Below are positions 8,344-40,105 of a DNA stretch of 64,000 bases, in pieces. A program made the position numbers and the translations under genes. The stretch lies in NCBI GenBank assembly GCA_024401925.1, contig JAKSKD010000007.1, positions 1-64,000 on the forward strand, given 5' to 3'. This DNA is from Bacteroidales bacterium. Its GTDB lineage: Bacteria; Bacteroidota; Bacteroidia; Bacteroidales; UBA932. The notes beneath the pieces were generated by a model that searched no databases, was not told where the DNA came from, and worked only from the letters and a program-made list of their open reading frames with translations. Positions within the stretch are counted from its first letter, which is position 1; every line of letters starts with the position of its first letter.

Positions 8344-8438
8344 AATGAAGTAAGCAAGTTTATCTCCAATTCTTACCAATTAATTTCTTACAGATGATTT
8401 TTCGTAAAATATTAATTATCAAAAACTTATATACATAA

Positions 8439-35574: not shown

Positions 35575-35608
35575 CGGCTACGGCACCATTCCCGCATAGC
35601 CGTAGCCG
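35575..35608 (+). repeat. REP-like palindrome A (3' side of the RAYT gene)
   Basis: CGGCTACGGC (35575-35584) and GCCGTAGCCG (35599-35608) form a perfect 10-bp stem with a 14-nt loop. It is 34 bp long, as are copies B (36533-36566) and C (39995-40028), which share the stem and the loop end TCCxxCATA. It ends 11 bp from the RAYT stop and also follows metK by 10 bp, so it may serve as the metK terminator. Confidence 0.8.
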
Positions 35609-35619
35609 TATTTTACTGA

Positions 35620-36516
35620 TCAAAGATGAAGGAACTTCCTAATCTGCCGCTTTGAAGCACGAGTTGAGCTATACATCCTCTTCGCCAAGTCCATTTTTTC
35701 CTCGTCGGACATCTGATACACCCGATTCAGCTCTTCATCCCACAGACAAGAGATTAAATTGGCGTACTCAACATCAGATTCGGTTACATATTCCTCGACA
35801 ATCTCATATTCGCTGCCTGTTGTAGAATCGAATGCAATAATCATTTCTTCAAAAGAATTATAAAATCCTGCAATAATGTCATATTCAATTATCCTGTAGG
35901 TGAATATGATGTAATCTATCATTCTCTCCATCTCCGCCGGGCTCAGTCTGCAGTCCATATTATCCAACTGCTCATAATTGATTGGCTGGTTCTCCCGACA
36001 TCTTTTCCTTACTAGATTTTTGTACCTCTTCATTTCCGACGATTCAACACTGCTTTGAGTAGAAAAAGGATTTTCATTATCCCGATATGCCAGGAAATTC
36101 CATCTGGTTGAAAGAACAGACGAACAGATTTTCTTCTCCACGTGATTGTTTGCCACATATGAAAGATTGTTTCTTATCGACTTCATCGACACTTTTGAAG
36201 CCCACCCGAAATGGTGATGAAATAACACCCCTTGACGATGTTTTCTGTAATTGTACGTTCTGACAAAAGCTGATGTATAGTCATTGACGAATTTCGACAT
36301 TATGATTTTGCTCTCGCACTTGACTGAAAGATGGATATGAGTGTACATAATTGCGGCAGAAAGCACTTTCACATCATATTTCCTTGCCTTTGTAATAATC
36401 AATGTAGTTAAGACCAAACGGTCTTTTTCGTCATAAAAGATTACTCCCCAATCGAATGCTCTCTGATAGATATGCTGCACCCCAGCGGCATTGAATTTTT
36501 TCTTTCTTCCCTTCAT
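35620..36516 (-). CDS. REP-associated tyrosine transposase (RAYT, Y1 HUH family)
   Basis: Single-strand DNA transposase-like protein related to IS200/IS605 TnpA. I prefer the ATG at 36516 (298 residues, MKGRKKKFNAAG), because the ATG at 36555 lies within palindrome B. Counting from 36516, the HUH motif is THIHLSVK (H60, H62) and the likely nucleophile is Tyr120 in YVANNHVEKK, matching the RAYT YxxxNPV-type motif. A C-terminal half of about 150 acidic, helical residues is not recognised. The gene is bracketed by palindromes A and B in direct orientation, the arrangement of self-maintained RAYT/REP systems. There are no terminal ends typical of an IS. A cellular, non-mobile RAYT is likely. Confidence 0.85.
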   Translation of the reverse strand: MKGRKKKFNAAGVQHIYQRAFDWGVIFYDEKDRLVLTTLIITKARKYDVKVLSAAIMYTHIHLSVKCESKIIMSKFVNDYTSAFVRTYNYRKHRQGVLFHHHFGWASKVSMKSIRNNLSYVANNHVEKKICSSVLSTRWNFLAYRDNENPFSTQSSVESSEMKRYKNLVRKRCRENQPINYEQLDNMDCRLSPAEMERMIDYIIFTYRIIEYDIIAGFYNSFEEMIIAFDSTTGSEYEIVEEYVTESDVEYANLISCLWDEELNRVYQMSDEEKMDLAKRMYSSTRASKRQIRKFLHL

Positions 36517-36532
36517 TATTTCTCTCTTTTTT

Positions 36533-36566
36533 CGGCTACGGCTCTGCTCCTGCATAGCCGTAGTCC
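36533..36566 (+). repeat. REP-like palindrome B (5' side of the RAYT gene)
   Basis: CGGCTACGGC (36533-36542) pairs with GCCGTAGTCC (36557-36566): seven perfect pairs plus a G-T and a G-C, around a 14-nt loop ending TCCTGCATA. Same orientation as copy A. It lies 17 bp upstream of the preferred RAYT start. No T run follows on the transcribed strand, so it is not an ordinary terminator. Confidence 0.8.
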
Positions 36567-36749: not shown

Positions 36750-37553
36750 ATGCCGAAACTCAAATTCACCATAATGGCGGAAATACCGGAGCCGGAAGTC
36801 ATCAATGCCGGTTCCCTGCTCTCTGCGTACCGCTCCGGCGCCATCGACCTGATCTGCGTCCTGGGGCCGACCGCTTCCGGAAAGACAAAGTATGCGGTCA
36901 GCCTCGCAAAGGAATTCAATTCCCTTTGCGGACAACCCCTGGCGGAAATAATCTCCGCCGATTCAAGGCAGGTCTATGAAGGGATGGACATAGGTACAGG
37001 AAAAGACCTGGCAGAATATGACGGCATTCCTTATCATCTTATCGACATACGGCCGGCGGGAGACAAATACAACGTCTATCAATACCAAGCTGACTTCGTC
37101 AAAGCATACCAGGACATCCGTTCAAGAGGGGAGATACCGATTCTCTGTGGCGGCACGGGACTATATATCGAAGCGGCCACCTGCGGATATGATTTCAAGA
37201 AGGAGGCCCCGGATATCGACCCCGGAAGCCTCCCTTCAAAAACTTACTATATCGGCACCCTGGTTGAACGCGACGTGCGGAATGCCAGAATTGATGCACG
37301 GCTCAAGGCCCGCCTCGAAGAAGGGATGGTCGATGAAGTCAGGAAACTCCTTGACGACGGCATCCCGGCAGAAGACCTTATCTATTACGGTCTTGAGTAC
37401 AAGTTCGTCACCCAGTACGTCATCGGAGAACTTTCATATGACGAGATGGTAACCCTTCTCGGCAACGCCATACACCAGTTCGCCAAGCGCCAGATGACCT
37501 GGTTCCGCGGAATGGAGCGCGACGGCATCACTATCCACTGGACGAGGGTATAA
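36750..37553 (+). CDS. miaA: tRNA dimethylallyltransferase, short form
   Basis: Adds the dimethylallyl group to N6 of A37 in tRNAs reading UNN codons. In 267 residues it keeps the P-loop (GPTASGKT, about 33-40), the DSRQVYEGMDIGTGKD motif (about 71-86), GGTGLYIEA and the C-terminal RQMTWFRGMERDGI tail. The enzyme is shorter than the roughly 310-residue norm because the central helical insertion is reduced, the short MiaA type found as one of two copies in many Bacteroidota. An ATG at 36774 (MAEIPEPE) is an alternative start. Fragments of a second miaA tail lie at 40034-40093. Followed by smpB after 24 nt. Confidence 0.9.
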   Translation: MPKLKFTIMAEIPEPEVINAGSLLSAYRSGAIDLICVLGPTASGKTKYAVSLAKEFNSLCGQPLAEIISADSRQVYEGMDIGTGKDLAEYDGIPYHLIDIRPAGDKYNVYQYQADFVKAYQDIRSRGEIPILCGGTGLYIEAATCGYDFKKEAPDIDPGSLPSKTYYIGTLVERDVRNARIDARLKARLEEGMVDEVRKLLDDGIPAEDLIYYGLEYKFVTQYVIGELSYDEMVTLLGNAIHQFAKRQMTWFRGMERDGITIHWTRV

Positions 37554-37562
37554 AAATATTCG

Positions 37563-38110: not shown

Positions 38111-39973
38111 ATGGCAAGTAAATCATTGAAGGGAAAAATCGGCGTCACCACCGAAAACATCTTCCCTGTTATCAAGGAATTTCTTTACAGCGATCACGAA
38201 ATCTTTATCCGTGAACTCGTTGCCAATGCCGTTGACGCGACGCAGAAATTAAAAACCCTAGCCTCTAACGGTGATTTCAAAGGCGAACTCGGGGATCTGA
38301 AAGTGCAGGTTGAACTTGACGAAAAGTCTAAGACCCTGAAAATCATTGACAACGGTATCGGAATGACATCCGATGAGGTGGACAAGTACATCAACCAGAT
38401 TGCCTTCTCCTCCGCAGGAGAGTTCCTCGAGAAATATAAGGATCAGATGGCCAGCATCATAGGTCATTTCGGACTCGGTTTTTATTCTGCCTTCATGGTT
38501 GCGAAGAAAGTGACTATCGAAACCTTGAGCTGGCAGGAAGGCGCAGAGGCTGTGAAATGGGTTTGCGACGGATCTCCTGAATACACGATGACTTCTTGCA
38601 AAAAGGATGACAGGGGCACCGTCATCACCCTGCAGCTTGATGATGATTCAGAGGAATATGCCGCAAAGGGACGTATCTCCCAGCTCCTGGACAAATACTG
38701 CAAGTTCATGCCGGTTCCTGTTATTTTCGGCAAGAAAACAGAATGGAAGGACGGCAAGCAGGTGGACACCGATGAGGATAATGTAATCAACAGCATATCC
38801 CCGATCTGGACAAAGACCCCTTCAGAGCTGAAGGATGAGGACTATCTGAATTTCTACAAGTCCCTCTATCCTATGGAGGAGGATCCGCAGTTTTGGATAC
38901 ATCTGAATGTGGACTATCCGTTCACCCTCACCGGCGTGCTCTATTTCCCGAAGATAAAGGAAAGGATGGCCATCGACAAGAACAAGATCCAGCTTTACTG
39001 CAACCAGATGTTCGTGACCGACCATGTGGACAACATCGTACCGGATTTCCTCACCCTGCTTCACGGCGTCATCGATTCTCCGGATATCCCGCTGAATGTC
39101 AGCAGAAGCTATCTCCAGAGTGACACGAATGTCAAGAAGATAAGCACCTACATCACGAAAAAGGTGGCTGACCGCCTCGAGGAAATCTTCAAGGAGCAGC
39201 GCGCACAGTTTGAAGAAAAGTGGGACAACATCAAACTCTTTATCGAATACGGAATGCTTTCCGACGAGAAATTCTCTGAGAGGGCTATGAATTTCGCACT
39301 GTTCAAGAACACTGACGGCAAGTACTTCAGTTTCGAGGATTACAGGAAGTGCATCGAGACAGAGCAGACCGACAAAGATGGCAAGGTGATATATCTGTAT
39401 GCCACCGACACTGAGGCTCAATATTCAAAGATTGCTGCAGCTAAGGCCCTCGGATATGATGTCTTGCTGATGGACTGCGAACTTGACAGCCATTATGTCA
39501 ACATGCTCGAGCAGAAGATAGAGAAGTCCGGTTTTGCACGCGTGGATTCGGCCCCCGTCAGCGACCTCATCGTTAAAGCCGAAAAGGTGAAGCCGGAACT
39601 GTCAGAGGATGATAAGAAGGCGATGGATGAACTGTTCAAATCCGTTCTCCCTGAAGGGAACGAATATATGATCGAGGCAGAGAACCTTGGCGAGGAGGCG
39701 GCTCCGGTAATGATTACCCAGAGCGAGTTCATGAGAAGGTGGAGGGAGATGTCTGCTATGGGTGGTGGAATGAATTTCTATGGCTCTATGCCTGAAGCAT
39801 ATGAGGTGAAAGTCAATATGGAGAATCCGCTTGTTGCTAAAATCTGGGGCGACAGAGAGAACACCTCCGAACTGCTGAGACAGGTCGTTGACCTCGCACT
39901 TCTCGGCTCGGGCCTGCTCAAGGGTAAAGCTCTGGCGGACTTCATCGCCCGCAGCGAGAAACTGCTGAAATAG
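38111..39973 (+). CDS. htpG: molecular chaperone HtpG (Hsp90)
   Basis: ATP-dependent cytosolic Hsp90 chaperone, 620 residues. The GHKL ATPase domain carries the family motifs ELVANAVDA (about 34-42), DNGIGM (about 80-85) and GHFGLGFYSAFMV (about 117-129). The middle domain has the NVSRSYLQ motif (about 336-343), followed by the dimerisation domain, without the eukaryotic MEEVD tail. Upstream (38031-38110) an AATTTG and a TATTATTTG are imperfect -7 candidates, and no CIRCE element is visible. The transcript likely ends at palindrome C, which is followed by six T's. Confidence 0.96.
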   Translation: MASKSLKGKIGVTTENIFPVIKEFLYSDHEIFIRELVANAVDATQKLKTLASNGDFKGELGDLKVQVELDEKSKTLKIIDNGIGMTSDEVDKYINQIAFSSAGEFLEKYKDQMASIIGHFGLGFYSAFMVAKKVTIETLSWQEGAEAVKWVCDGSPEYTMTSCKKDDRGTVITLQLDDDSEEYAAKGRISQLLDKYCKFMPVPVIFGKKTEWKDGKQVDTDEDNVINSISPIWTKTPSELKDEDYLNFYKSLYPMEEDPQFWIHLNVDYPFTLTGVLYFPKIKERMAIDKNKIQLYCNQMFVTDHVDNIVPDFLTLLHGVIDSPDIPLNVSRSYLQSDTNVKKISTYITKKVADRLEEIFKEQRAQFEEKWDNIKLFIEYGMLSDEKFSERAMNFALFKNTDGKYFSFEDYRKCIETEQTDKDGKVIYLYATDTEAQYSKIAAAKALGYDVLLMDCELDSHYVNMLEQKIEKSGFARVDSAPVSDLIVKAEKVKPELSEDDKKAMDELFKSVLPEGNEYMIEAENLGEEAAPVMITQSEFMRRWREMSAMGGGMNFYGSMPEAYEVKVNMENPLVAKIWGDRENTSELLRQVVDLALLGSGLLKGKALADFIARSEKLLK

Positions 39974-39994
39974 TATCGAATTTGTAGATATTTC

Positions 39995-40028
39995 CGGCTA
40001 CGGCTATGTAGGAGCATAGCCGTAGTCG
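39995..40028 (-). repeat. REP-like palindrome C (inverted copy after htpG)
   Basis: Third copy of the 34-bp family, in the orientation opposite to A and B. The 10-bp arms CGGCTACGGC and GCCGTAGTCG pair with one G-T, around a 14-nt loop. Its reverse strand matches copy B at about 85% of positions. A run of six T's follows on the plus strand, so it can also act as the htpG terminator. It directly abuts the miaA fragment (40034-40093). Confidence 0.8.
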
Positions 40029-40033
40029 GTTTT

Positions 40034-40093
40034 TTATTCGCTATTCCAGTGATTTGTGATGCCATCGCGCTCCATCCGGCGGAACCAGGTCAT
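40034..40093 (-). pseudogene. miaA C-terminal fragment
   Basis: Reads MTWFRRMERDGITNHWNSE and a stop. It is about 86% identical in nucleotides to the end of the intact miaA (37489-37539) and matches the universally conserved MiaA tail motif. There is no rest of the gene: trmB ends 12 nt upstream on the same strand and palindrome C follows 5 nt downstream. It may be the relic of a second miaA or of a recombination event at the REP element. Confidence 0.75.
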
Positions 40094-40105
40094 CTTACTC
40101 AAAGT

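Follow-up and report, generated by a model that had tools for sequence, protein, structure and literature searches.

The stretch analysed here (the window) comprises 64,000 nucleotides of a gut-type Bacteroidales bacterium (contig JAKSKD010000007.1, positions 1 to 64,000 of the forward strand) and carries, next to metK, a gene for a Y1 HUH transposase that lies between two similar palindromes and resembles the transposases associated with repetitive extragenic palindromes (REP-associated tyrosine transposases, RAYTs). Comparison of 130 genes of its family leads us to a reading to which we assign a probability of roughly three in four, namely that the product is a domesticated, mostly vertically inherited RAYT-type transposase with private palindromes, belonging to a genus-restricted family with a helical C-terminal extension and no GTAG guide. 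The features concerned are listed below.

35620–36516, minus strand: RAYT-like Y1 HUH transposase gene, 298 residues plus stop (open reading frame (ORF), AlphaFold model, nearest solved structure 4ER8)
36331–36339, minus strand: HUH motif, residues 60–62 (H60-I-H62), both His present in 130 of 130 family genes
36157–36159, minus strand: Tyr120, presumed catalytic, in the motif YVANNH of the window member; Tyr120 and Asn124 present in 130 of 130 genes
35623–36069, minus strand: all-helical C-terminal extension, residues 150–298 (structure model, Pfam, Foldseek)
35575–35608: palindrome A, between the stops of metK and of the RAYT-like gene, 10-bp arms and 14-nt loop
36533–36566: palindrome B, upstream of the RAYT-like gene at 16 bp from its start codon, arms perfect over 8 bp (CTACGGCT/AGCCGTAG)
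39994–40029 (strict motif 39998–40025): palindrome C, a solo copy located 20 bp downstream of the htpG stop, predicted to fold with 16-bp arms and a 4-nt loop
34344–35564, plus strand: metK, convergent neighbour (TIGR01034, E 4.5e-163)
38111–39973, plus strand: htpG, with palindrome C at its 3' end (NF003555, E 6.5e-192)

Palindromes of the transposase family

Matched private palindromes accompany many genes of the family, their stems drift together with the proteins, and copies are dispersed between genes. Among the 124 of 130 genes with at least 200 bp of sequence on both sides, a palindrome was detected upstream in 94, downstream in 93 and on both sides in 74; palindromes were rarer (98 of 515) in control windows 0.9–3.5 kb away, which are probably mostly coding. 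The upstream and downstream palindromes of a single gene matched (score ≥12) in 60 of the 74 genes in comparison to 38 of 1500 swapped pairs, and stem likeness dropped with rising protein distance (r −0.30, 53 genes, none of 2000 permutations as extreme). Solo units also resembled the flanking stems of their own genome, with 23 of 36 agreeing at 9 or more of 11 letters (null 1.8%); by set, this applied to 18 of 20 at named loci, 5 of 8 in genome G044 and 0 of 8 in genome G057. In G057, outer AAAAGGCT was common, by eye, to 8 of 14 non-flanking units and the two flanks. The two palindromes of a gene compared better in direct orientation in 35 cases and inverted in 18, with four ties, and 16 clear cases divided into ten direct and six inverted, although orientation is weak evidence because the units are nearly symmetric.

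Many of these stems are set in a symmetric frame of 88 bp. When the paired palindromes of 57 genes, chosen by palindrome and flank match and not by frame, were aligned by their centres, fixed blocks appeared on both sides at constant distances (a T-run at 14–16, TAA at 20–22, TGA near 28, TCA near 35 and TT near 42), most clearly in the 47 genes with an even centre. In the fifty units from which model R1 was built, 93.9% of cells in the inner 14 pairs were standard and 263 two-sided changes were counted in comparison to 77.8 in shuffles, figures that are overstated because the units were picked for pairing and frame. A framed flanking stem was found in 79 of 130 genes, and many framed stems are edged by an A-run and a T-run, resembling two-way terminators.

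Genome scans with R1, limited to scoring the 36 best candidates of each genome and counting both strands, gave matches in 52 of 73 genomes of the genus and a single weak site in 47 others. At least five strand-matches were present in 39 of 44 genomes with the protein and 7 of 29 without it (P 3e-8, kinship uncorrected). In samples of 400 kb and 391 kb, 16 and 11 framed sites were counted, gene-flanking ones included; 13 of the 16 sites in the 400-kb sample lay outside ORFs, in comparison to 302 of 4000 random stretches. Two 20-kb stretches of G057, in which 6 of its 16 unit sites are located, gave no Rfam match at E 0.1.

In the window itself, the initial annotation had described two flanking palindromes within 11 and 17 bp of the gene that shared one 10-bp arm. 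Both are present at the coordinates listed above and in the same orientation, with 76% agreement over 45 nt, and palindrome A does lie 11 bp from the stop codon of the RAYT-like gene (and 10 bp after the metK stop), but the gap between palindrome B and the ATG at 36516 measures 16 bp. The 10-bp arm is perfect in palindrome A only; palindrome B is limited to 8 bp because its right end reads GTAGTCC. The motif GGCTACGGC-N6-24-GCCGTAG gave four strand matches at three window sites and none in 100 shuffles. The genome-wide motif search that had been proposed bore fruit on a small scale, as the strict form CTACGGC-N8-24-GCCGTAG occurred at four sites in the 1.86-Mb genome in comparison to one for the reversed-pattern control; two of these are the gene flanks and two lie beyond them, at 39998–40025 and at G000:C28:13581–13608. 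All four hairpins fold more stably than shuffles (z −3.8 to −8.2). Both solo copies lie close to gene 3' ends, the strict motifs lying 24 and 8 bp after a stop: palindrome C is followed by a T-run, and the copy on contig C28 follows a gene resembling short-chain dehydrogenases (matches under cut-off), with a tRNA-Pro gene nearby. The strict motif was also found in 13 of 120 other genomes of the genus, at one or two places each, and the listed ones have unlike loops. Judged from these sequences, the palindrome family of the window is very small, with four members, and private to its genome as far as searched.

Conservation, structure and position of the gene

Catalytic residues are conserved throughout the family, the genes are under purifying selection and close orthologues have common flanks. 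The HUH motif and the tyrosine were intact in all 130 genes, and the gene with these motifs reported earlier at 35620–36516 was recovered as a minus-strand ORF; the frame could also be read from 36555 onwards, but the aligned family N-terminus begins at 36516. The ratio of non-synonymous to synonymous substitution was 0.07–0.21 in 12 of 13 pairs. Median length was 310 residues and the HuH-Y distance was 58 in 124 genes and 57 in six. Canonical GTAG RAYTs have a conserved tryptophan ahead of the Tyr motif (W94 in E. coli); in the present family a tryptophan (W105 in the window protein) was located within 30 residues before the tyrosine in 22 of 130. Copies within one genome, among the genes fetched, had a mean identity of 44.5% and a maximum of 78.8% (59 pairs).

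The C-terminally extended family was found in one of 48 genera searched. Profile A1 matched at E 1e-80 or better in 44 of 73 genomes of this genus, and the remaining 29, many of them incomplete assemblies, showed no full-length gene. Each genome had one to nine A1 matches, a figure that includes fragments as well as members of another, more distantly related Y1 family (about 300 residues, E about 1e-11 to 1e-19) present also in two other genera. A search of genome_contigs matched 126 stretches, and of the best 80, 79 were labelled Bacteroidales or Bacteroidia (many ruminant) and one Fibrobacter; the window protein alone gave no match there. No relative was found in IMG/VR with A2, nor any match in plasmid and phage collections with one relative (L077) as query. 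The gene on the contig labelled as a Fibrobacter succinogenes metagenome-assembled genome (L118) is 98% identical to L020 with matching flanks, and its contig is probably mis-binned. The window genome holds a second family gene (L037, G000:C12:69993-70901), 31% identical and with framed units of its own.

The window protein matched PF01797 (Y1_Tnp) above cut-off, scored 18.4 bits against a cut-off of 80 for the curated NCBIfam NF047646, which all 35 aligned family members matched at E 0.01, and was modelled with a predicted local distance difference test (pLDDT) score of 90.1. The closest solved structure was the E. coli TnpA-REP (RAYT) 4ER8, ahead of IS608, in a VIA-align list whose coverage is mainly of residues 1–231; no viral structure matched at E 0.001. 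The unrecognised C-terminal half of about 150 residues noted earlier is real, its two Pfam matches being below their cut-offs. Its predicted structure, which had been suggested as a check, is all-helical, and the extension modelled alone reached pLDDT 80 and a predicted template modelling score (pTM) of 0.44, with a best Foldseek E of 2.4. A profile search of the PDB with this part gave matches only at E 0.8 or worse, and 37 extensions searched against Pfam hit 14 families, one member each, at E 0.0074 or worse, none described as helix-turn-helix (HTH). These search results provide no evidence for a new fold.

Gene position was compared in 60 listed pairs of 169, which are not independent. All 35 listed pairs of at least 80% identity share at least one homologous flank, and among the next 25 (69–79%) 12 share a flank and 13 do not. 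Empty-site comparisons between related loci (38 units) found the unit in both in 28 cases, on one side in five, no match in three and a gap-like result in two, and two aligned locus sets contained no precise empty-site junction. At the metK 3' end, 30 loci from relatives had a gene order too variable to reveal an empty site. Another family gene (L204, G017:C66) is located, convergent, right after metK in another species, and a framed unit adjoins metK at G009:C44:36868-36956.

The htpG 3' end was surveyed in 48 cases: 29 in one set (one more was too short), 18 in another (with a doubtful stop in L271) and G044. A palindrome or gene of the same genome, matched by eye, was present at six of these ends, each of the six species having a different palindrome type and G044 having the gene with its units there; the six include the window and G006, whose frameless families count only four and six strict members. 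For other hairpins at this end, those of G012, G028 and G036 among them, no known palindrome of the same genome matched. One might propose that sites persist through speciation while stems are rewritten in place to follow the resident enzyme, an idea we hold to be distinctly unlikely. The two samples extrapolate to 70–100 framed units per genome, although they are probably rich because they were chosen to include genes and units, and at such a density six of 48 may be chance.

Known systems, alternatives and a possible mechanism

The family has the broad marks of RAYT/TnpA-REP systems with REPs (REPtron, E. coli 4ER8): a Y1 HUH core with a single tyrosine and, in most members, a Y...N-P type motif, a palindrome-flanked gene with dispersed intergenic copies (in the window genome two further copies only) and diverged paralogues. 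It differs in having no GT[AG]G foot, a helical extension of about 150 residues, gene-private stems and, in many lineages, the 88-bp frame. The RAYT/REP layout initially read from the window is upheld in part, as to the palindrome-flanked Y1 HUH gene near 4ER8 and its further copies, but with the GT[AG]G guide absent we call the gene RAYT-like and not a canonical RAYT. TnpA-Y1 subclass 2.6 of Bacteroidetes likewise has atypical flanking structures without GT[AG]G and with copies elsewhere in the genome, but its median length of 179 residues and HuH-Y distance of 82 (PMC6006769) contrast with 310 and 57–58 here, so that the present family is not subclass 2.6. TIRYT genes and subclass 2.1 share a C-terminal extension, and flanking inverted repeats, some self-complementary and some in moderately abundant families, are described for them (PMC3733652, PMC6006769). 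They are reported to have HTH domains and a GGGGWSAS motif, whereas no HTH was recognised here, and REP-like sequences were not detected around genes of subclass 2.1 (PMC6006769). Set against these descriptions, and not on a tree of reference RAYTs, the family could not be assigned to another described subclass. A literature search on palindrome-linked tyrosine transposases in Bacteroidales found no paper.

A mobile IS200/IS605-like insertion sequence (IS), whose hairpins would be left and right ends hopping together with the gene, would share the Y1 fold, the HUH motif and the Pfam match, and its layout likewise has two similar subterminal hairpins enclosing a Y1 gene (PMC6006769); the 13 pairs lacking a common flank and the family gene after metK in G017 would also suit it. 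We consider it quite unlikely, mainly because paralogues are diverged (99.4% within-genome identity is given for the IS subclass in PMC6006769), close orthologues have common flanks and solo palindromes occur without the gene; the lack of plasmid or phage matches to L077, the fold closer to 4ER8 and, weakly, the mixed flank orientation also speak against it. Ordinary terminators alike by chance, with the gene incidental, would account for the closeness of palindrome A and both solo copies to stop codons, the T-run after palindrome C and the other hairpins behind htpG in several genomes. This is highly improbable given the matched palindrome pairs, and the 88-bp frame exceeds terminator length and is nearly confined to the genus. 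The purifying selection, the common flanks, the terminator-like edges of framed stems and the location of units close to the 3' ends of genes, which in some cases are convergent, would suit an enzyme domesticated for a host function, in which it binds or nicks 3'-end palindromes to end transcription, stabilise mRNA or handle the chromosome, with spreading slow or over. We rate this as unlikely, as a general terminator role does not require each gene to have private palindromes that change along with it, and 29 of 73 genomes, many incompletely assembled, show no full-length gene.

Several results weigh against our preferred interpretation of a vertically inherited, RAYT-type enzyme with private palindromes. 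No palindrome was detected on one or both sides of 50 of 124 genes, the two palindromes of 14 of 74 genes do not match, and none of the eight counted G057 units reached 9 of 11 stem letters. GT[AG]G was found within 7 nt of only 1 of 228 palindrome feet, where a rough estimate predicts about seven. The window genome has a family of only four copies. The 13 pairs without a common flank imply that genes sometimes move or duplicate, and the presence/absence case that was aligned had fuzzy edges and no clean empty site. Seven genomes (G011, G027, G030, G039, G055, G064 and G070) have at least five framed-unit matches and no full-length family gene; such units may be relics after gene loss, reflect incomplete assemblies or be used by another Y1 family.

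Under the RAYT-type interpretation, the private palindromes beside a gene would be the recognition sequences of its enzyme, and the other two copies in the window genome the rest of that family, which the enzyme may move. Where DNA becomes single-stranded, for instance on the lagging-strand template, a palindrome would fold into a hairpin, the enzyme would bind its own stem sequence, and Tyr120, with a metal held by H60 and H62, would cut and rejoin the strand. We infer this recognition, cutting and low-rate copying from the fold, the intact active site and the pairing. A copy would occasionally be placed elsewhere and survive chiefly close to stop codons, and the gene itself would as a rule remain in place; the C-terminal part may have some role. 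As stems change, protein specificity would change along, yielding lineages with private pairs. Because GT[AG]G was seen at 1 of 228 feet, target choice would have to rest on the stem, the frame or both; guide and stem differ in weight among RAYTs (PMC8266576). RAYTs are transposases that bacteria have tamed. One genus offers more than 100 distinct enzymes, many of which have a palindrome pair of their own with differing stems, often in the same 88-bp frame, and hence a natural test set for the joint change of enzyme and DNA target, with a recognition code open to statistics and swaps. As the group has no GTAG guide, guide-free target choice can be addressed in it as well.

Frameless palindromes of the window clade

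The window clade has bare palindromes without the 88-bp frame. Loci L007, L008, L009 and L038 group together with a local support of 89 (not starred), and R1, run unfiltered and up to an E of 1, listed no unit at these four or at L001, whereas units were found at all eight neighbouring-branch loci (L014, L026, L036, L037, L060, L061, L066 and L075). That the clade keeps the C-terminal part without the frame argues against a simple model in which the frame is read by this part. Genome-wide counts covering the window, L038 and L009 palindrome types gave four strict copies in the window genome (G000), six in G006 (L038 palindrome) and four in G036 (L009 palindrome), with reversed controls of 1, 0 and 0. 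All eight solo copies were located 5–25 bp from an ORF stop, two of them also inside a mechanically called ORF.

R1 found no convincing unit in the window. Its best match (8367–8428, E 0.26, possibly by chance) is an AT-rich stretch that resembles the two outer halves of the frame, the stem being reduced to a few letters. The neighbours of the RAYT-like gene in the window are metK on one side and miaA on the other. The 3' end of miaA has an inverted relic of 65 bp (40031–40095, copy at 37492–37556, 10 mismatches) directly next to palindrome C, and this relic between htpG and trmB reads as a rearrangement scar.
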